Source: a virus
IMG/VR virus record: IMGVR_UViG_3300027752_000068
Coordinates: 1 to 30,913 of that record
Reading direction: 5' to 3' (one strand)
DNA: 30,913 nucleotides
The notes under the pieces are model-generated. The model was not told the DNA's origin. It was given only the letters and a program-made list of their open reading frames with translations, and ran no database searches. The position numbers and the translations under genes were made by a program. Below are positions 1,351-27,469 of this stretch, piece by piece; position 1 is the first letter of the stretch; every line of letters starts with the position of its first letter.

Positions 1351-1527
1351 GAACTCAGCGGCTAGGCAGCGCAGTTCCTCTTGGTAATCATCCCAGCGCA
1401 TATGCGCCGCGTTGTGAATGTCTTTTGCGTCAAGCCAATCTGAAAGGCGGTCAACTTGCTTTTCAGTAGCTAAGGCAAATTCAAAGTTTTCGGCTAGGTA
1501 GTGCTGTTTGATTGTTTCGTATGTCAT
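1348..1527 (-). CDS. Hypothetical protein (59 aa), first gene of the leftward cluster
   Basis: This 59-residue frame (MTYETIKQHYLAENFEFALA... ending LRCLAAEF) has a GGAG ribosome binding site eight bases before the ATG and typical helical, charged composition with several Trp and Asp. It is the gene nearest the divergent control region, so it is probably the first in the leftward transcript. I do not recognise the family. Its stop codon is the first base of leader module B. Confidence 0.7.
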   Translation of the reverse strand: MTYETIKQHYLAENFEFALATEKQVDRLSDWLDAKDIHNAAHMRWDDYQEELRCLAAEF

Positions 1528-1796
1528 GTGATCGGCTCCATTGTTTTGTGTGTCTGTGTCTGTGTCATTAGAATAGGAGCGGAATGCGGCAATGTATATT
1601 GTTACGTTACGTCACTTATATTCTAGCCATATGTGTTGCAAATATAGAACAAAATCGAGGAACGGGTTTTTATGAGTTGGGCATAGGAAAAACAGCTCCC
1701 GGCAATGTACGGCGCTAAAATCAGGCTGTGCGTTGAATTGCCTGTTTTACCGTACCACGGCGCACCGAACCACAATGCCACACGCAGCGCGTCCGC

Positions 1797-1853
1797 TTAA
1801 CTGAACGCTTGTTCAATTACAATGATGCAATTAACTGAACGCTTGTTCAATTA
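1797..1853. repeat. Two direct copies of an operator-like dyad
   Basis: A 23-bp sequence occurs identically at 1797-1819 and 1831-1853, 34 bp apart start to start. Each copy contains the inverted repeat TGAAC-GCTT-GTTCA, which resembles sites bound by dimeric helix-turn-helix regulators such as TetR-family proteins. That likeness is by eye. The second copy lies 13 bp before the heptad array, whose cores GAACAC and GTGTTC share the GAAC/GTTC half-sites. Confidence 0.8.
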
Positions 1854-1866
1854 ATGTAGCCCAATG

Positions 1867-2125
1867 ATATACAGTATGTCGAACACTGAGTACGGTAGAC
1901 TGTATACAGTGTTCTGTATTTGGTATTCTGTATACGGTATACGCAATACAGTGTTCGATAGACCGAACACTAAGTACGGTATACGGTATACAGTGTTCTG
2001 TATTCTGTATTTGGTAGACAATGTTTAGTATGTTGAACACTGAGTACGGTATTCTGCATTCGGTATACGGTATTCTGTATACGGAATACGCAATACAGTG
2101 TTCGGTATTTGGTAGGCGGTATGTA
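1867..2125. repeat. 37-unit heptanucleotide repeat array (GTATWCN)
   Basis: Cut into seven-base units from 1867, the whole stretch falls into 37 consecutive heptads with no insertion or deletion. Consensus is GTAT(A/T)C then a variable base. By my count G is at position 1 in 31 of 37 units, T at position 2 in 27, A at 3 in 29, T at 4 in 30 and C at 6 in 30. GTATACG occurs at 1930, 1937, 1979, 2063 and 2077; GTATTCT at 1923, 2000, 2049 and 2070; GAACACT at 1881, 1965 and 2035; GTGTTC at 1909, 1951, 1993 and 2098. Three super-units each open with GAACACT-RAGTACG. The core hexamers are palindromes (GTATAC) or reverse complements of each other (GTGTTC/GAACAC). Confidence 0.95.
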
Positions 2126-2140
2126 AAAATGCCCCCCGGG

Positions 2141-2168
2141 TCGACGTTTTCTGGGGTAGTGTTATTAT
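2141..2168 (+). promoter_or_regulatory. Candidate promoter for the late (terminase) operon
   Basis: A -35-like TCGACG and a -10-like TATTAT are separated by 16 bases, directly after the heptad array and about 115 bases before the terS start. The match to the sigma-70 consensus is moderate (4/6 and 5/6). It is offered because some rightward promoter is expected here and this is the best candidate seen. A phage-specific late promoter would not be recognised by this approach. Confidence 0.35.
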
Positions 2169-2283: not shown

Positions 2284-2784
2284 ATGGCAGGCAAACCTTT
2301 ACGCAAGCGCATACTCGCGGACATCGCCAAGCGAGGCGGAGCAGATTACTTGTTTGACCAGCTCGCCTCTGGCAAGACACTGACCAAGCTTGCTGCTGAG
2401 TATGAGTGCAGCCGTGAGTATCTCAGCAAGTCCATCCACGCCATCCCTGAGTATTCTTCTGCCGTGTCAAAGGCGCGGCAAGCTGCGGCAGATGCGTTGG
2501 TTGAGCAGGGCTTGGAGATGGTTGACGCGCTAGACGGGGCCAGCACCACGTCGGAGATTTCGGCCACGCGTGAGAAGGTGCAGTGGCGCAAGTTTATGGC
2601 AGGCTCGTATAATCAGGAGCGATACGGCAATCGGCCCCAGACGAATGTGACGATTAGCGTGAGCGACATGCACCTAGACGCGCTACGCAAGGTCAACTCC
2701 GATCTTGCCGCGATTGATACTGAGGATCGTGAGCGTGAGTCCCGCGCGATTGACGCAGATTATGAGGATGTCACAGATGACTGA
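2284..2784 (+). CDS. terS: Terminase small subunit
   Basis: The 166-residue protein has a basic N-terminus, a helix-turn-helix at about residues 24-50 (SGKTLTKLAAEYECSREYLSK), a long helical middle containing VDALDGASTTSEISATREKV and WRKFMAGSYNQERYGN, and an acidic tail ending YEDVTDD. This is the usual plan of small terminase subunits, which recognise phage DNA and deliver it to the large subunit. The start at 2284 is chosen over the ATG at 2269 because GGGAG sits eight bases upstream of it. The end overlaps the large subunit by eight bases. The non-coding repeat region just upstream may contain its recognition site. Confidence 0.85.
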   Translation: MAGKPLRKRILADIAKRGGADYLFDQLASGKTLTKLAAEYECSREYLSKSIHAIPEYSSAVSKARQAAADALVEQGLEMVDALDGASTTSEISATREKVQWRKFMAGSYNQERYGNRPQTNVTISVSDMHLDALRKVNSDLAAIDTEDRERESRAIDADYEDVTDD

Positions 2785-4177
2785 CGCCAATCCATTTGAT
2801 GAGTTTGTGCTGCGTTACCGCGATGATCCTGTTTTGTTTGTGCAGGAAGTGCTGGGCGCAACGCCATATGACTATCAGGCTGAGTTTCTTAACGCGCTGG
2901 CAAACGGCGAGCGTAAGATGTCTGTGAGGTCTGGCCACGGTACTGGCAAGTCAACGACGGCGTCTTGGGCTATGCTTTGGTACGTCATGCTTCGGTTTCC
3001 AAATAAGGTTGTGGTTACGGCACCCACGTCCGGCCAGTTGTTTGATGCTTTGTTTGCTGAGTTAAAGCGTTGGATTAATGAGCTGCCGGATCAGTTAAAG
3101 GTTTTGTTGACGGTTAAATCCGACCGGGTTGAGCTAACTGCGGCTCCGTCTGAGGCTTTTATTTCGGCTAGAACGTCACGCGCTGAGACGCCCGAAGCAC
3201 TTGCTGGGGTACACTCTGCGAATGTGCTGTTGGTTGTGGATGAGGCTTCTGGTGTGCCTGAGAAGGTGTTTGAGGCTGCTGCGGGTTCTATGTCCGGCCA
3301 CGCTGCGACTACGATATTGTTATCCAACCCGACGCGTTCTAGCGGTACGTTTTACGAAAGCCAGACGCGCCTTAAAGACACTTGGTGGACACGGCGTTGG
3401 TCTTGCGTTGATAGCCCACTGGTGTCTGACGAGTTTGTTGATGAGATGCGTGCGAGATACGGTGAGGATAGCAATGCTTTCCGCATTCGTGTGTTGGGCG
3501 AGTTTCCTATGGCGGATGATGATACGATTATTCCGTTCCACTTGGTTGAGAGTGCCATTCGCCGCGATATTCAGGTTACGCCTGACCAGAAGCCTATTTG
3601 GGGCTTGGACGTGGCTAGGTTTGGTTCGGACAAGACTGCGCTGTGTAAGCGGTATGGCAATGTTGTGACTGAGATTACGTCTTGGCAGGGCTTAGATTTA
3701 ATGCAGACTGTTGGGCGCGTTATGGCCGAATACGAGGGCTTATCGCCCTCTATGCGGCCCAGCGAAATATTGGTTGACAGTATTGGCGTTGGCGGTGGCG
3801 TTGTGGATAGACTGCGTGAGTTGGGTGCGCCTGTGCGTGGGATTAATGTTGGCGAAGCTCCTGCTATGGGCAATACTTACATGAATTTGCGGGCTGAGCT
3901 TTGGTTTAAGACTAAGGGTTGGTTAGAGGATCGTTCGTGCAAATTACCGAATGACGATCAATTGCTGGCAGAGTTAACTGCGATTAGATTTTCGTTTACG
4001 CCCGGCGGCAAGATGAAAGCTGAGAGCAAGGACGACATGCGCAAGCGTGGGCTGAGGTCGCCGGATTTGGCAGATGCTTTATGTTTGACTATGGCGAGTG
4101 ACGCGGCGACTGCTTTGTCCGGCGCTATGTCAAGTTGGAAGAAAGCTATCAAGCGTAATTTGAAAGGCATTGCATGA
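2777..4177 (+). CDS. terL: Terminase large subunit (packaging ATPase/nuclease)
   Basis: The 466-residue protein carries an N-terminal ATPase with Walker A RSGHGTGKS (51-59) and Walker B LLVVDEAS (151-158), and a coupling motif near LLSNPTRSSGTFY. A C-terminal RNase H-like nuclease follows, with acidic residues in GLDVARFGSDKTAL (D278), ILVDSIGVG (D334) and SPDLADAL (D430/D433). This motor translocates and cuts DNA at the portal. An upstream GTG-type extension in the same frame is rejected because the ATG at 2777 has GAGG nine bases before it and overlaps the end of terS. The stop overlaps the next start as ATGA. All expected catalytic residues are present. Confidence 0.96.
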   Translation: MTDANPFDEFVLRYRDDPVLFVQEVLGATPYDYQAEFLNALANGERKMSVRSGHGTGKSTTASWAMLWYVMLRFPNKVVVTAPTSGQLFDALFAELKRWINELPDQLKVLLTVKSDRVELTAAPSEAFISARTSRAETPEALAGVHSANVLLVVDEASGVPEKVFEAAAGSMSGHAATTILLSNPTRSSGTFYESQTRLKDTWWTRRWSCVDSPLVSDEFVDEMRARYGEDSNAFRIRVLGEFPMADDDTIIPFHLVESAIRRDIQVTPDQKPIWGLDVARFGSDKTALCKRYGNVVTEITSWQGLDLMQTVGRVMAEYEGLSPSMRPSEILVDSIGVGGGVVDRLRELGAPVRGINVGEAPAMGNTYMNLRAELWFKTKGWLEDRSCKLPNDDQLLAELTAIRFSFTPGGKMKAESKDDMRKRGLRSPDLADALCLTMASDAATALSGAMSSWKKAIKRNLKGIA

Positions 4178-6071: not shown

Positions 6072-6452
6072 ATGAGCTTTTCAGACACATTTGAAACCAA
6101 AGTTTTAACTTGGGTTTTTACCACAGGCACCGCGACACGCCCAACTGCGTGGTATGTTGCACTTTACACAGCCGCACCATCCGACCCCGGGGGCGGAACT
6201 GAAGTCTCTGGCGGCGGTTATGCAAGGCAGGCTGTTACGTTTACTGTTTCTGGCAACACTGCCTCAAACAATGCTGCGATTGAATGGCCAGTTGCCACAG
6301 CGGGTTACGGCACGGTTACTTACGTCGGCGTTTTTGACGCTGTGACTAGCGGGACTTTGATTGCTTATGCAGCGCTAACGACGAGCAAGGCGATTGATAC
6401 CGGCGATGTATTTAGGCTCCCATCTGGTGATCTTGACGTCACGCTAGACTAA
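6072..6452 (+). CDS. Conserved phage structural protein (tail/fibre associated, 126 aa)
   Basis: The sequence begins SFSDTFETKVLTWVFTTGT, followed by WYVALYTAAPSDPGGGTEVSGGGYAR, a pattern seen in a common family of small phage tail or fibre-associated proteins. The rest is beta-rich with alternating hydrophobics (GTVTYVGVFDAVTSGTLIAY). It probably forms a beta-sandwich on the virion surface. The ORF ends in a TAATG overlap with the next repeat protein, which suggests the two are made together. Exact role unknown. Confidence 0.65.
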   Translation: MSFSDTFETKVLTWVFTTGTATRPTAWYVALYTAAPSDPGGGTEVSGGGYARQAVTFTVSGNTASNNAAIEWPVATAGYGTVTYVGVFDAVTSGTLIAYAALTTSKAIDTGDVFRLPSGDLDVTLD

Positions 6453-7177: not shown

Positions 7178-9781
7178 ATGGCTGATACAACGACAACGGC
7201 ATATGGCTTAACAAAGCCAGAAATTGGCGCTTCCGAGGATACTTGGGGTACAAAGATCAACACTGATCTGGATACTTTGGATACGGTTGTAAACGCGATT
7301 GGCGGTAAGACTGCCGCTGCTACGTTGTCCTATGCAGATGCGGCCAAGATTGCGACGACTGCCACCGGGGTGGATGTTACAGGCACAGCCGTAACAGACG
7401 GTTTAACCGTAGCTGGCAACCTGTCAGTCGATGGCGGCACAATCAAGCTGGACGGTAACTATCCTGTTGGTACAGGCAACGTGGCGTTGGGTAATACTGC
7501 GTTGGATAGTTTAACGTCAGGCGGCAACAATACAGCCATTGGTCGTGATGCAATGACAGCAAACACCTCTGGTGGAACTAACGTAGCTTTGGGTGGAAGG
7601 TCACTAGAAGCAAACACAAGTGCAAGTAATAATATTGCTGTTGGCTACGGTGCAATGCTTGTAAATACTACAGGGGCGAATAATGTAGGCATTGGTTACA
7701 ATGCACTACTCTCCAACACCACCGCCTCTAACAACACGGCAGTTGGGTATCAGTCGCTTTATGCTAATACTACTGGCGCACAAAACACGGCTATTGGTAG
7801 GCTTGCGCTTGATGCAAACACTACTGCTAACGAAAATACAGCCGTAGGTAACTCTGCACTTGGGGCAAATACAACTGGTGCATCTAACTCTGCTTTAGGC
7901 AGTGGTGCGATGACTTCCAATACCACAGGTACTACCAATGTTGCGATTGGTGATTCTGCCCTTTACTCCAACACCACCGCCTCCTACAACACTGCAGTTG
8001 GGTATCAGGCTGGGTATACAAATAGTACTGGTATTCGTTTGTCGGCCCTTGGGTATCAGGCATTATACACAAACACTACTGGCACAGATAACGATGCATT
8101 TGGACACCAAGCCCTTCGCACTAATAACGGAAACTATAATCAAGCGTTTGGTCGTTCTGCTCTGTATAGTAATACTTCTGGCACAAGTAATGTAGCTATG
8201 GGTTCTAACCCTTTGTATACAAATACTACAGGTAGCTATAACGTAGCATTGGGCATGGAGTCACTATTCTCCAACACCACCGCCAACGCCAACACCGCAG
8301 TTGGGTATCAGTCGCTTTATGCAAATACTACAGGTTACTCAAACACCGCTGTTGGCCATCAATCGTTAGACAGTAATACCACGGGTGCAGGAAACAGCAC
8401 ATTTGGTCATGGTGCTGGCGCAGGTAATACCACAGGTACAAACATAAATATCTTTGGCATAAACGCTGGGTTGTCCAGCACAACAGCCAATAACATTACT
8501 GCGTTTGGTTCAGATACTTTACGCAACAATACTGCGTCTAACAACGCTGGTTTTGGCTCTGGCGCTTTATATACTAACACAACAGGTACTGGAAATACTG
8601 CACTTGGCCCAGCCGCATATGGATCAACGCAAGGCCCACTTGGTCTTAACACCTCTGGAAGTTCCAACACCGCTATTGGTATGCAAGCACTACTCTCTAA
8701 CACCACCGCATCCAACAACAATGCTTTCGGTTTTCAGGCGCTGTACTCAAATACAACGGGCGCTGTTCAAACGGCAATGGGTCACGCTGCCTTAAATGCT
8801 AATACGACAGGTACTGAAAATACTGCCTTTGGCGGCGCAGCATTACTGGATAATACAACAGGCAACTATAACGTGGCAGTAGGGCGTAATGCCTTAGCCA
8901 ACAACACCACCGCATCCAACAACACCGCTGTTGGGTATCAGGCTGGGTATAATACAACAACTCAACCGGAAAATACATTTTTAGGCGCTGGCGCTGGTTA
9001 TTCTAATGTCACAGGTACAAAAAATACCTTTGTTGGTATGAACGCGGGTTATTATTGTACAGGTTCAGACAACACTATCCTTGGCCGTTTCTCAGGCAAC
9101 CAAGGCGGCTTGGACATCCGCACCTCAAGCAACAACATCGTGCTGTCGGATGGGGATGGTAATCCTAGGGTTCGGGTTGATTCTAGTGGATTAGTATCTA
9201 TTGGAGCAGCTACCAGCCCCCACGGAGGAACAAGGCTTTACCTTGAGAATAGCGCTTCAGCAAACGGGCTATCCCAAGTCAATAACACCCACAACGTAAG
9301 CGGAGATGTTGCAAACGGATGGTGGCTTGGCTCTAATTGTAACAATACAAGTTCTTATTTTCTTCAGTGTGGTATTACTGGTGTTGCCAACCAGTTGTAT
9401 ATCTACGGCAACGGAAACATACAAAATACTAACAACAGTTACGGCGGTATTTCGGATGTTAAACTTAAAGAAAACATTGTTGATGCTTCCTCACAATGGG
9501 ATGACATTAAAAACTTAACTGTTCGTAAGTATAGCTTAAAATCAGACAATCTTGATGCCCCTAATATGCTTGGTGTTATTGCTCAAGAAGTTGAAGATGC
9601 TGGAATGGGTGGTCTTGTATTTGAAAGCCCTGATCGTGACACGGACAACAATGTTTTAGACACTACAACCAAGCACGTTAGTTATTCCATCCTCTACATG
9701 AAAGCAGTCAAGGCACTGCAAGAAGCAATGGAACGCATTGAGGCATTAGAAACTAAAGTCACAGCCCTAGAAGGAGCATAA
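7178..9781 (+). CDS. Tail fibre/spike with YadA-like repeats and S74 chaperone domain
   Basis: The 867-residue protein starts with a fibre N-terminal module (about 1-100: YGLTKPEIGASEDTWGTKIN). It continues with about 32 repeats of mostly 17 residues (about 101-650) built on NTAxGxxAL...NTTG, resembling the left-handed beta-roll heads of trimeric adhesins such as YadA. After a linker, a C-terminal peptidase S74 domain starts at about S759 (SDVKLKENI), followed by a terminal coiled coil (KAVKALQEAMERIEALETKV). S74 domains trimerise the fibre and then cut themselves off before the conserved Ser. The protein probably binds the host surface. TAGGAG precedes the start. Confidence 0.9.
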   Translation: MADTTTTAYGLTKPEIGASEDTWGTKINTDLDTLDTVVNAIGGKTAAATLSYADAAKIATTATGVDVTGTAVTDGLTVAGNLSVDGGTIKLDGNYPVGTGNVALGNTALDSLTSGGNNTAIGRDAMTANTSGGTNVALGGRSLEANTSASNNIAVGYGAMLVNTTGANNVGIGYNALLSNTTASNNTAVGYQSLYANTTGAQNTAIGRLALDANTTANENTAVGNSALGANTTGASNSALGSGAMTSNTTGTTNVAIGDSALYSNTTASYNTAVGYQAGYTNSTGIRLSALGYQALYTNTTGTDNDAFGHQALRTNNGNYNQAFGRSALYSNTSGTSNVAMGSNPLYTNTTGSYNVALGMESLFSNTTANANTAVGYQSLYANTTGYSNTAVGHQSLDSNTTGAGNSTFGHGAGAGNTTGTNINIFGINAGLSSTTANNITAFGSDTLRNNTASNNAGFGSGALYTNTTGTGNTALGPAAYGSTQGPLGLNTSGSSNTAIGMQALLSNTTASNNNAFGFQALYSNTTGAVQTAMGHAALNANTTGTENTAFGGAALLDNTTGNYNVAVGRNALANNTTASNNTAVGYQAGYNTTTQPENTFLGAGAGYSNVTGTKNTFVGMNAGYYCTGSDNTILGRFSGNQGGLDIRTSSNNIVLSDGDGNPRVRVDSSGLVSIGAATSPHGGTRLYLENSASANGLSQVNNTHNVSGDVANGWWLGSNCNNTSSYFLQCGITGVANQLYIYGNGNIQNTNNSYGGISDVKLKENIVDASSQWDDIKNLTVRKYSLKSDNLDAPNMLGVIAQEVEDAGMGGLVFESPDRDTDNNVLDTTTKHVSYSILYMKAVKALQEAMERIEALETKVTALEGA

Positions 9782-10346: not shown

Positions 10347-11828
10347 ATGGCTTTAATTGATCTGAACATTCCCGCTGGCGTCTACAAAAACGGGACGGAC
10401 TTGCAAAGCATGGGTCGCTGGCATGATGCGAGCTTAATCCGCTGGGGCGACGGCGTTATGCGCCCAATCGGCGGTTGGCGTTTACGCTCCTCAACAGCGG
10501 CCAACGCAACTCTTCGCGGCATGTTGACTTGGGTAGCCAATGACGACGTGCGCTGGATTGCTTCAGGTACATACGACAAACTTTATATTTGGACCGCACC
10601 CGGTGTGCGCTATGATATTACTCCTGCCGGTCTAACCGCTGGTAGAGAAGACGCCATTTCGTTTACTGGCTTTGGCGGCGGTACATACGGCAGTTATGGC
10701 TACGGCATTGCCCGGCCTGACACAGTTCGCATTCAGCCAGCTACAAGCTGGGATTTGGAATCATGGGGCGAGTATCTGCTGGCCTGCAACGAAGACGACG
10801 GCAAGATTTACGAGTGGCAACTCAACACCGCCGTAGTGGCAGCAGTTCTGTCTAACGCTCCAGTTGACAACCTTGGCTGCGTTGTAACTGAAGAGCGCTT
10901 CCTGTTTGCGCTTGGCGCTGGCGGCAATCCTCGCAAGGTACAATGGTCAGACAGAGAAAATAATAATCTATGGACGCCAGCCGCTACAAACGAGGCCGGT
11001 GATCTTGAGCTAAACACGTCCGGCGCGCTGATGAAGGGCATGACCGTTCGCGGCCAGACTTTGCTTTTAACAACGCGCGACGCCCACGTTGCAAATTATA
11101 TTGGCCCACCTTATGTCTACGGCATTGAGCGTGTTGGCACGTCATGCGGATTAGCTGCAAAGCAAGCTGCCGTTGTCGTTGACGCTGGCGCATTCTGGAT
11201 GGGCGTTAATTCGTTTTACACATATCAAGGTGGCGCTGTGCAAGAGCTGCCGTGCGACGTGGCTGACTATGTGTTTAATGACATCAACAAAGGTCAGGTT
11301 AGCAAGGCGTTTGGCATGTCAAACTCAATGTTTGGCGAGGTAACTTGGTTTTACCCAAGTGCAGCGTCAACTGAGAATGACCGCTACGTCACATACAACT
11401 ACACAGAAAACACTTGGATGATTGGCAACTTGGCTCGCACGGCTGGCATTGACCGTGGCGCGTTCCGCCAGCCCATGATGGCTGACCCGGCAGACTATAA
11501 GATATATGAGCATGAGATTGGCTTTGACTACGGCACGTTAACGCCGTTTGCTGAAACTGGGCCGTTCCGCATTGGCACGGGCGACCAAGTCATGAGCGTG
11601 ACTGAATTATTGCCGGATGAAAAATCGCAAGGCGACGTGAATGCTATTTTTAAAACGCGCTTTTATCCAAACGGCACGGAACGGTCATACGGCCCGTATT
11701 CTATGAGCAACCCAACGTCGGTCAGATTTACCGGGCGTCAGGTTCGAATGCGTGTTGAGGGTGAGCGCTTGGCTGATTGGCGCGTAGGCATTAATCGGCT
11801 TGACGCTGTTGGCGGCGGTCGTAGATGA
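10347..11828 (+). CDS. Tail hub/DNA-stabilisation protein (P22 gp10-like candidate)
   Basis: The 493-residue protein is beta-rich with many Trp/Tyr/Gly and strand-like segments such as MLTWVANDDVRWIASGTYDKLYIW, WGEYLLACNEDDGKIYEWQ and EVTWFYPSAASTENDRYVTYNY. This suggests a beta-propeller. Size and context match P22 gp10-like packaged-DNA stabilisation proteins, which close the portal channel in short-tailed phages. This is inferred from fold pattern and place, not from a search. The start at 10347 has GAGAGG in front. An upstream in-frame extension is rejected because it would begin inside the terminator. The end overlaps the next gene as ATGA. Confidence 0.6.
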   Translation: MALIDLNIPAGVYKNGTDLQSMGRWHDASLIRWGDGVMRPIGGWRLRSSTAANATLRGMLTWVANDDVRWIASGTYDKLYIWTAPGVRYDITPAGLTAGREDAISFTGFGGGTYGSYGYGIARPDTVRIQPATSWDLESWGEYLLACNEDDGKIYEWQLNTAVVAAVLSNAPVDNLGCVVTEERFLFALGAGGNPRKVQWSDRENNNLWTPAATNEAGDLELNTSGALMKGMTVRGQTLLLTTRDAHVANYIGPPYVYGIERVGTSCGLAAKQAAVVVDAGAFWMGVNSFYTYQGGAVQELPCDVADYVFNDINKGQVSKAFGMSNSMFGEVTWFYPSAASTENDRYVTYNYTENTWMIGNLARTAGIDRGAFRQPMMADPADYKIYEHEIGFDYGTLTPFAETGPFRIGTGDQVMSVTELLPDEKSQGDVNAIFKTRFYPNGTERSYGPYSMSNPTSVRFTGRQVRMRVEGERLADWRVGINRLDAVGGGRR

Positions 11829-26321: not shown

Positions 26322-26544
26322 AACTATTCGGCCTCGCCACTGGCCGGATGCTGCTTGACGGCATGTCAGTTCGCTCACATTGCGCCATGCTATCTCTAGA
26401 CTGCGCTAAGATGACGGGGTAGATCGCATCAATAGCCACTGAGCATGTCTGCATGTCCTTGAAGTAAACAGTTGACGTGGCCTCATAGGAGGTCACGCCA
26501 ATGTTTACGGTGTAGGTCAGGATTAGTGCTGCCCAGTAAGTCAT
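26320..26544 (-). CDS. Small exported/membrane protein with two Cys (74 aa)
   Basis: The start ATG overlaps the stop of the preceding HTH gene (ATGA), which supports it as a real gene. The 74-residue product opens with a hydrophobic stretch (YWAALILTYTVNIGV) followed by VYFKDMQTCSVAIDAIYPVILAQSRDSMAQCER, with cysteines at 34 and 56. This looks like a periplasmic domain with a disulphide. It is similar in plan, though not clearly in sequence, to the 57-aa protein of the late operon. Function unknown; last gene of the leftward replication operon. Confidence 0.65.
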   Translation of the reverse strand: MTYWAALILTYTVNIGVTSYEATSTVYFKDMQTCSVAIDAIYPVILAQSRDSMAQCERTDMPSSSIRPVARPNS

Positions 26545-27305
26545 CGTTCATCCTCAAATGGTGAATGGAATGCCTCGATAGGCTGCTTGCAGAACACCCA
26601 GCGCCATTGCGGCTTAGTCTGGTCCTTGATTTCCACATAATCGCGCACCCGGTGTATTTTTTCAGCTAAAACCAATTTCTTCATATAGCTGGCTGTGCGT
26701 GGGATACTATCCCCAAGCAACTCAGCGGCGTCTGCGACGGTAACGCGCTGGTCATCGCTCAGCATGCCGATAAGTTTCTCACCTTGCGCTATGCCATACG
26801 CCTTACGCCTGCTAGCTATTTCAAGCGCGCCCTTGTGCATCGTGCTTTGCCGTGGCTTCATCGACGGCAATGGCCCACGGTTTTTTAGTTTGTATTGCAG
26901 CCGCTCAAACTCAAGAATGCAATGGCCGTAAGTTATCTCGTATCGCTTATACTTGTCAGTGACGCCCTGAAGGCTTGCCTTTAGTCTGCCTTCGGGAGAG
27001 CGTTTAAAGCGGATTTCAGCCTCTCTAGCAGCACGCTCTGCTCCTGTAGCCTCTGCTGCAAGTTTGGCCTCTTCAAGGTGTTCGGCTCGCTCAGCATGAT
27101 CGAGTTCACTCTCTCGAGCCTCTGGATATACTTCATTATTTTTTCCATGCCTTACCTTTCTGGCTAAAGTTATACCTAATTTTTTTGCGATGCGGTGGAC
27201 CGTTGAATTGGAAATGTGCAGCAATTCTGCAATCTCGCCCTGACACATATTCATCTCAGCGCACTTGATGAGATGATCTATTGTGGCGTCTGAAGTCTTG
27301 GTCAT
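26541..27305 (-). CDS. DNA-binding protein with two HTH regions (254 aa)
   Basis: A helix-turn-helix near residues 20-45 (NMCQGEIAELLHISNSTVHRIAKKLGI) is followed by a long charged helical linker and a second winged-helix-like part near 185-235 (SDDQRVTVADAAELLGDSIPRTASYMKKLVLAEKI). The plan suggests a transcription factor or replication-associated DNA-binding protein. The start at 27305 is chosen because it overlaps the stop of the small zinc gene (ATGA); 14 further residues in frame upstream are rejected. It sits in the replication operon after the primase-helicase, which fits an operon regulator or an origin-binding protein. Confidence 0.75.
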   Translation of the reverse strand: MTKTSDATIDHLIKCAEMNMCQGEIAELLHISNSTVHRIAKKLGITLARKVRHGKNNEVYPEARESELDHAERAEHLEEAKLAAEATGAERAAREAEIRFKRSPEGRLKASLQGVTDKYKRYEITYGHCILEFERLQYKLKNRGPLPSMKPRQSTMHKGALEIASRRKAYGIAQGEKLIGMLSDDQRVTVADAAELLGDSIPRTASYMKKLVLAEKIHRVRDYVEIKDQTKPQWRWVFCKQPIEAFHSPFEDER

Positions 27306-27469
27306 TCGTCTTCCTCCATAGGCTCTACTTGGCCTGTTCCTGCGCAATTATCGCATTCAGTTGTTTCTGTGTCTGGAAAGCCATAATCATTGTTAAGGCT
27401 TTGCGTGACAAACGTCTCGCGTTCCTGTGATCCAGTGCCATTGCACTCAGGGCAATCAATCCATTCCAT
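27302..27469 (-). CDS. Small zinc-binding protein, DnaJ-like CxxCxGxG motifs (55 aa)
   Basis: The start overlaps the HNH gene stop (TAATG) and the end overlaps the next start (ATGA). The 55-residue product has two CxxCxGxG-type motifs, CPECNGTG (6-13) and CDNCAGTG (39-46), separated by an acidic linker, and ends in EPMEEDE. DnaJ cysteine-rich zinc centres have this motif twice per zinc. Here one pair of motifs would bind a single zinc ion. No J domain is present, so a chaperone role is not implied. Confidence 0.75.
   Translation of the reverse strand: MEWIDCPECNGTGSQERETFVTQSLNNDYGFPDTETTECDNCAGTGQVEPMEEDE

Follow-up and report, generated by a model that had tools for sequence, protein, structure and literature searches.

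The spacer between the early genes and terS

The window (the whole 30,913-nucleotide stretch of viral DNA analysed here) comes from a podovirus-like marine phage. Judged by the portal protein, the nearest cultured relative is a phage of Octadecabacter: Octadecabacter Antarctic DB virus 2 has a portal with 49% identity. No DNA match to a cultured phage was found. The window is an incomplete genome; contig L120, which is 99.9% identical to it over 7.7 kb and carries an identical heptad array, bridges its two ends via 4.8 kb of additional early genes. In the related near-complete contig G001, the ends overlap by 215 bp at 99%.

The array sits in a ~750-bp spacer, with leftward small genes (including that for ArdA) on one side and the rightward terS and terL on the other (Table 1). 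An earlier reading made from the letters alone (the sequence-only reading) had placed it in non-coding DNA next to terS, at an early/late switch region. This placement was borne out: the array is non-coding and lies upstream of terS, in the spacer from which early and late genes diverge. The array ends ~15 bp before a putative late promoter and ~160 bp before the start of terS. The promoter consensus scan itself gave 4 sites where 1.9 were expected, which is not significant; the GTGTTATTATTA of the putative promoter was kept in 10 of 10 aligned relatives. A C-rich stretch lies to the right of the array, as does the putative promoter. One ORF on the minus strand (1831-2040) crosses the array and is unlikely to be a gene, the array length differing among relatives.

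To the left of the array is the operator-like palindrome TGAACGCTTGTTCA, in two copies; relatives have 0-2 copies, and it occurs also in some that lack heptads. A leader segment is present in two copies (~86%) between the small leftward genes, at 951-1044 and 1264-1350; the copies contain GACAGGCC...GGCCTGCCC, which is likely to be a hairpin or terminator.

Table 1. Features of the terS spacer and associated genes in the window.
Feature	Position	Strand	Basis
59-aa ORF, first leftward ORF past the spacer	1351..1527	-	ORF list for L120 (same phage), 6138-6317
Palindrome-like TTACGTTACGTCA (TGACGTTACGTCA in relatives)	1602..1614	.	Sequence and relatives
Palindrome TGAACGCTTGTTCA, copy 1	1802..1815	.	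Sequence and relatives
Palindrome TGAACGCTTGTTCA, copy 2	1836..1849	.	Sequence and relatives
Heptad array, 37 units, core GTATAC or more loosely RWRYWY, seventh base free	1867..2125	.	Sequence, lag-7 autocorrelation, profile score
Left-type module GTATGTC-GAACACT-GAGTACG	1874..1894	+	Sequence; comparison with L005, L006, L161
Right-end module CAATACA-GTGTTCG-GTATTTG-GTAGGCG-GTATGTA	2091..2125	+	Alignment of relatives
Putative late promoter TCGACG-N16-TATTAT, TG before second hexamer	2141..2168	+	Consensus scan, conservation
terS, terminase small subunit	2284..2784	+	PHROG 1482, E 7e-10
terL, terminase large subunit	2777..4177	+	PHROG 2, E 5e-45
HTH protein, alternative candidate reader	26541..27347	-	Pfam HTH_24, E 2e-8

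Periodicity and composition of the heptad array

The array consists of 37 contiguous degenerate 7-bp units, the first starting at 1867 and the last at 2119, in steps of 7 bases and with no off-register indel. Within the array, identity at lag 7 was 0.58, and remained at 0.54-0.58 at all multiples of 7 up to 49; at other lags it was 0.13-0.32, and the window-wide mean was 0.25 (sd 0.05). The 25 top-scoring lag-7 windows (100 bp each) of the whole window all lay inside the array. A heptad profile built from the array scored 184.7 on it and had 0 matches in 100 shuffled sequences. The autocorrelation suggested as a check by the sequence-only reading thus gave a lag-7 peak far above background, and the coordinates and register given there were exact. 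The individual copies that it had listed were also found: GTATAC at 1902, 1930, 1937, 1979, 1986, 2063 and 2077, GAACACT at 1881, 1965 and 2035, and GTGTTC at 1909, 1951, 1993 and 2098. Its statement that all 37 heptads fit GTATWCN was correct as to unit number and the lack of indels, but not as to the core, which is exactly GTATWC in only 11 of 37 units and fits the looser RWRYWY in 27 of 37.

Mean identity between units was ~57%, because of which Tandem Repeats Finder reported only fragments of the array. Neighbouring units were no more alike than distant ones; similarity peaked instead at a distance of 147-154 bp. Positions 1-6 of the heptad (the core) are constrained and position 7 is free, and variation at core positions 2 and 5 is almost only A versus T. 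The array also has a second level of organisation, in the form of recurring modules that start with GKATGTY-GAACACT-RAGTACG; GAACACT-RAGTACG recurs in the window at 1965-1978 and 2035-2048. No further heptad array was found above shuffled background in the window, L120 or G001, other phage promoters included. Repeats of another kind occur at 7178-9781, in an 867-aa tail-type protein made of many NTT(G/A)xxNTAxG repeats.

Self-complementary units could form a long functional stem, as structured RNA or as a DNA hairpin. As RNA, the plus strand of the array folds to -94 kcal/mol; however, sequences with shuffled heptad order or shuffled columns folded equally well or better (means -98 and -102), and an Rfam scan yielded only sub-threshold microRNA matches. 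The hairpin is evidently a by-product of unit symmetry, since the shuffles fold no weaker, and we rejected it as a function; this explanation is extremely improbable. Covariation analysis of the dyads showed no consistent complementary signal within GTATAC or across TACNGTA. Between neighbouring units, positions 4/3 alone leaned complementary and positions 5/2 leaned the opposite way, signals that are explained by linkage between modules.

Turnover and register of the array in related phages

Close phages were found through TerS, and their arrays were compared at the same spacer. Heptad numbers at this fixed place were 37 in the window and L003/L120, ~33 in L005, 13 in L012, 12 in L006 and L161, 8 in L004, and 7 in L007, and heptads were absent from the terS spacer of L009, L020 and L053. 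In L004, L007, L009 and L053, a degenerate array of 11-bp period was present at the heptad site, instead of or beside heptads; these arrays have GGCAA/GTCAA cores, e.g., AGGCAAGAGTA. TerS stays 93-99% identical while the 7-bp and 11-bp arrays replace each other. Because close relatives have 7-8 heptads or another repeat at this place, the exact repeats are probably not essential. The multi-copy binding site proposed in the sequence-only reading is plausible; an essential signal built of 37 units is unlikely, because L004, whose TerS and HTH protein are each 99% identical to those of the window, has only 8 heptads.

The right-end module, which reads CAATACA-GTGTTCG-GTATTTG-GTAGACG-GTATG across arrays, was kept in 7 of 7 array-bearing phages compared, and its motif was present in only seven viral contigs. 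In L012, GTATTCA replaces CAATACA, and there is a 28-bp insertion of duplicated GTATTTG-GTAGACA units. The last 24 bp of the array were more similar to those of L012 than were the flank and the terS coding sequence (P 0.007-0.046 per comparison, in six comparisons among related sequences). The heptad counts of the relatives, the modules and the kept 24 bp indicate that the array gains and loses units and blocks, and that its promoter-side end is its most stable part.

Comparison with relatives bore out the unbroken register, with zero off-register indels in ~122 heptads of seven phages, but not a fixed copy number, which ranged from 7-8 to 37, some relatives having no heptads. In the flanking DNA, 1-3 indel events were counted per 9-36 substitutions, i.e., ~1 per 10. 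The sequence-only reading had taken the kept register as a sign of selection on spacing. This does not follow, because indels are rare in the flanks as well and copying of whole units or blocks preserves the register; the register is compatible with selection and is no proof of it. Stronger hints come from the freedom of position 7, from the restriction of positions 2 and 5 to A/T variation and from the conservation of the right end. In the pair L110/L122, which have ten-heptad arrays of equal unit number (L110 1388-1457, L122 4842-4911), the heptads differed at 5 of 70 positions versus 8 of ~690 neighbouring non-coding positions. This faster change of the heptads speaks against strict constraint.

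Several of these observations would be expected of repeat DNA without a dedicated reader, i.e., a heptamer satellite that arose through slippage and then expanded blockwise through recombination, in a spacer where insertions are tolerated. The register would survive as whole units are copied, and with the indel rate of the flanks an indel-free array is only marginally surprising. Copy number varies between near-identical phages and other repeats replace the heptads, the similarity peak at 147-154 bp resembles that left by block duplication, and no reader gene is unique to carriers. Heptameric repeats are over-represented in many bacteria, and polymerase slippage has been proposed as their origin (PMC4692102); similar GTATTCN/GAATACN heptamer arrays were seen in many bacterial phyla among the matches listed. 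On the other hand, there is no excess similarity between neighbours and hence no sign of recent single-heptad slippage. Constraint acts on the core and not on the seventh base, the comparison with L012 shows conservation of the right-end module, and tandem arrays are concentrated before terS, not spread over the rest of the non-coding DNA (see below). Given how common heptameric repeats are and how much the copy number varies, we consider this explanation a strong rival and only somewhat unlikely.

The bacterial arrays (loci L234-L351) came from a scan of bacterial genomes that selected for GTATWC, and as matches listed they give no basis for frequencies. Several of them include GAACACT, GTGTTC or GTAGAC-type variants, as in the phage. 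Many other GTATWCN matches in viral and bacterial contigs were rejected as relatives of the array, being simple bacterial heptamer repeats or coding GAATACA repeats, the latter belonging to one phage group.

The array also resembles the bacterial heptameric repeats of the STRR, TAACTGA and GGGAATC types, which are intergenic and variable in copy number (PMC4692102, PMC4679880). Like STRR, it is composed of tandem heptamers, is intergenic, and differs in copy number between close relatives at one place. In contrast, STRR copies are mostly near-perfect and located at many places in a genome, whereas the phage units show their ~57% identity without neighbour excess and form a single array in each of the window, L120 and G001.

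Candidate reader proteins and possible functions of the array

A 53-aa ribbon-helix-helix (RHH)-like protein is encoded in L120 (9278-9436), within the 4.8 kb absent from the window, by a gene that adjoins a RuvC-like resolvase gene. In a profile search of solved structures, it matched NikA (E 0.0019) and CopG (E 0.34); its match to the NikA-like Pfam family was weak and below the cut-off. The predicted model consists of two helices (pLDDT 80), with the expected DNA-contacting strand modelled as helix. Structural matches of this model were individually insignificant, with RHH antitoxins and CopG prominent among them. The 53-aa gene is conserved and occurs also in relatives without heptads. The HTH protein was likewise found in phages without heptads, being present in 9 of 13 related records. 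No DNA-binding gene unique to heptad carriers was found; the search returned just a free-standing HNH-like protein and spurious ORFs.

RHH-type genes were observed beside heptads in unrelated contigs. In L185, seven GTATACA/GTAGACA heptads (10973-11021) lie directly behind an Arc-like RHH gene (PHROG), which is convergent with another gene. In L156 (2990-3097) and L167, the region between terS and terL contains GTATACG heptads, which end 16 bp ahead of a 76-aa gene called RHH-like as judged by sequence only; the L156 protein had no family match, and its single-sequence AlphaFold model was poor. These neighbours are leads, found post hoc among a handful of arrays.

Contiguous heptads are known as binding sites of omega, the RHH protein of plasmid pSM19035, which places one dimer on each contiguous, unspaced 7-bp unit, the units overlapping promoters (PMC9499535). 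In omega/parS, units occur in both orientations with the consensus WATCACW, sites contain 7-10 units, and at least 4 contiguous units are required for full activity (PMC9499535). The phage array is likewise contiguous, unspaced and gap-free, has units in both orientations, and exceeds 4 units. It differs from omega/parS in that 0 of 37 heptads fit WATCACW, the cores being GTATAC-like, and in having 37 units rather than 7-10. Its putative reader, the RHH-like protein below the Pfam cut-off, is encoded elsewhere in the genome. No ParA partner was seen among the phage proteins scanned, which represented part of the genes. In MetJ met boxes, an RHH dimer occupies each of 2-5 contiguous palindromic boxes of 8 bp. 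The phage units are similarly contiguous and palindromic, with a period of 7 instead of 8 bp.

We tentatively favour the explanation that the heptads are a multi-copy, iteron-type array for protein binding, located next to the putative late promoter in the control region between the leftward early genes and the rightward late genes, of which terS is the first; its most likely reader is an RHH-like protein. A small dimeric DNA-binding protein would bind with one dimer per heptad. Since each 7-bp step covers two thirds of a helical turn, contiguous dimers would cover every face of the DNA in one filament, as omega does on WATCACW heptads (PMC9499535). This filament would stop ~15 bp short of the putative late promoter and would tune transcription of the late genes and possibly also of the early genes. 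By analogy with the heptads of omega/parS, the phage's own 53-aa protein is most likely the reader and is the best candidate. Features of the array that argue for such binding are the kept register and right-end module, the constrained core and the occurrence of the units only here; the existence of the RHH-like protein, the RHH neighbours in unrelated contigs, the omega precedent and the enrichment in two phage families point in the same direction. Arguing against it are the variable copy number and the relatives that have no heptads at all, the absence of dyad covariation, the fast-changing heptads of L110/L122 and the presence of the RHH and HTH genes in non-carriers, together with the sub-cut-off RHH assignment, the helix modelled in place of the DNA-contact strand and the lack of a family match and of a good model for the L156 protein.

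The position of the array over the terS promoter region would also suit a packaging site. In SPP1, pac spans the terS promoters and has direct repeats both there and further upstream; its boxA repeats are not shared with SF6, yet TerS is still exchangeable, binding being largely sequence-unspecific (PMC4737164). The array could correspondingly be part of a pac region in which TerS recognises repeated or flexible DNA before its own gene largely by shape, with the repeats interchangeable. As in SPP1, the repeats are upstream of terS and its promoter and differ among relatives, and here 7-bp and 11-bp arrays are exchanged beside a nearly constant TerS. The overlapping ends of G001 and the joining of the window ends by L120 fit a circular or permuted genome; however, a permuted assembly is no proof of headful packaging. 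Unlike the few longer boxes of SPP1, the array is one long series of 7-bp units, and a 7-bp period rotates successive sites by 240 degrees each, so that successive bends cancel and the array is unfit for one-face wrapping. A role in pac is quite unlikely.

Iteron-like repeats in a divergent spacer, with replication genes in the leftward arm, could alternatively belong to a replication origin read by a phage initiator. The cumulative GC-skew minimum of the window is at 1281, ~0.6 kb from the array, but that of G001 (12256) is ~3 kb from its array; moreover, skew flips also where transcription diverges, and no initiator was tied to the repeats. We regard an origin as very unlikely.

Tandem arrays upstream of terS were not restricted to phages close to the window. 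They were also seen in the spacer preceding the presumed terS of another phage family, that of L110 and its relatives, whose TerL is only remotely similar (24% identity over 204 residues). With the threshold used, the periods there were 7, 10, 11 or 19; a lower threshold added some arrays of period 9. Among non-coding segments of at least 100 bp in both families, tandem arrays were present in 21 of 92 upstream of terS versus 7 of 268 elsewhere (Fisher 1.4e-8 pooled; 0.002 and 0.0001 for each family alone). These p-values are overstated, because the sequences are related, in part redundant and so not independent, we set the threshold ourselves and ORF masking was crude; the direction was the same in both families. 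One reading of this distribution is that the terS spacer is a general control or packaging locus at which unrelated phages keep a short-period array (7, 9, 10, 11 or 19 bp) while sequence and period are free to change, the array being read in the present phage by an RHH protein that forms an omega-like filament on the 7-bp units. This broader reading is rather unlikely.

The sequence-only reading had suggested that such an array next to terS is undescribed. This claim must be narrowed, since contiguous heptad arrays read by an RHH protein (PMC9499535), direct repeats over the terS promoters of a pac region (PMC4737164) and an excess of heptameric repeats in many bacteria (PMC4692102) are known; the elements of the case are of known kinds and their combination is new, the open-licence papers searched containing no account of an array like this beside a phage terS. 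If a small phage protein does coat the array, contiguous-heptad binding, known from one plasmid partition system, would extend to phages and reach the early/late switch of lytic-type marine phages, and the natural copy-number series of 7-8, 12, 13, 33 and 37 units would be suitable for a study of cooperativity. If nothing reads it, the array is a clear example of a degenerate, register-keeping array that looks selected and is replaceable in relatives. In either case, the occurrence of unlike tandem arrays before terS in two phage families merits a broader survey. In the second family, the tandem arrays (period 7, 9, 10, 11 or 19) were lineage-specific and were observed within 800 bp upstream of terS in L402-L481.
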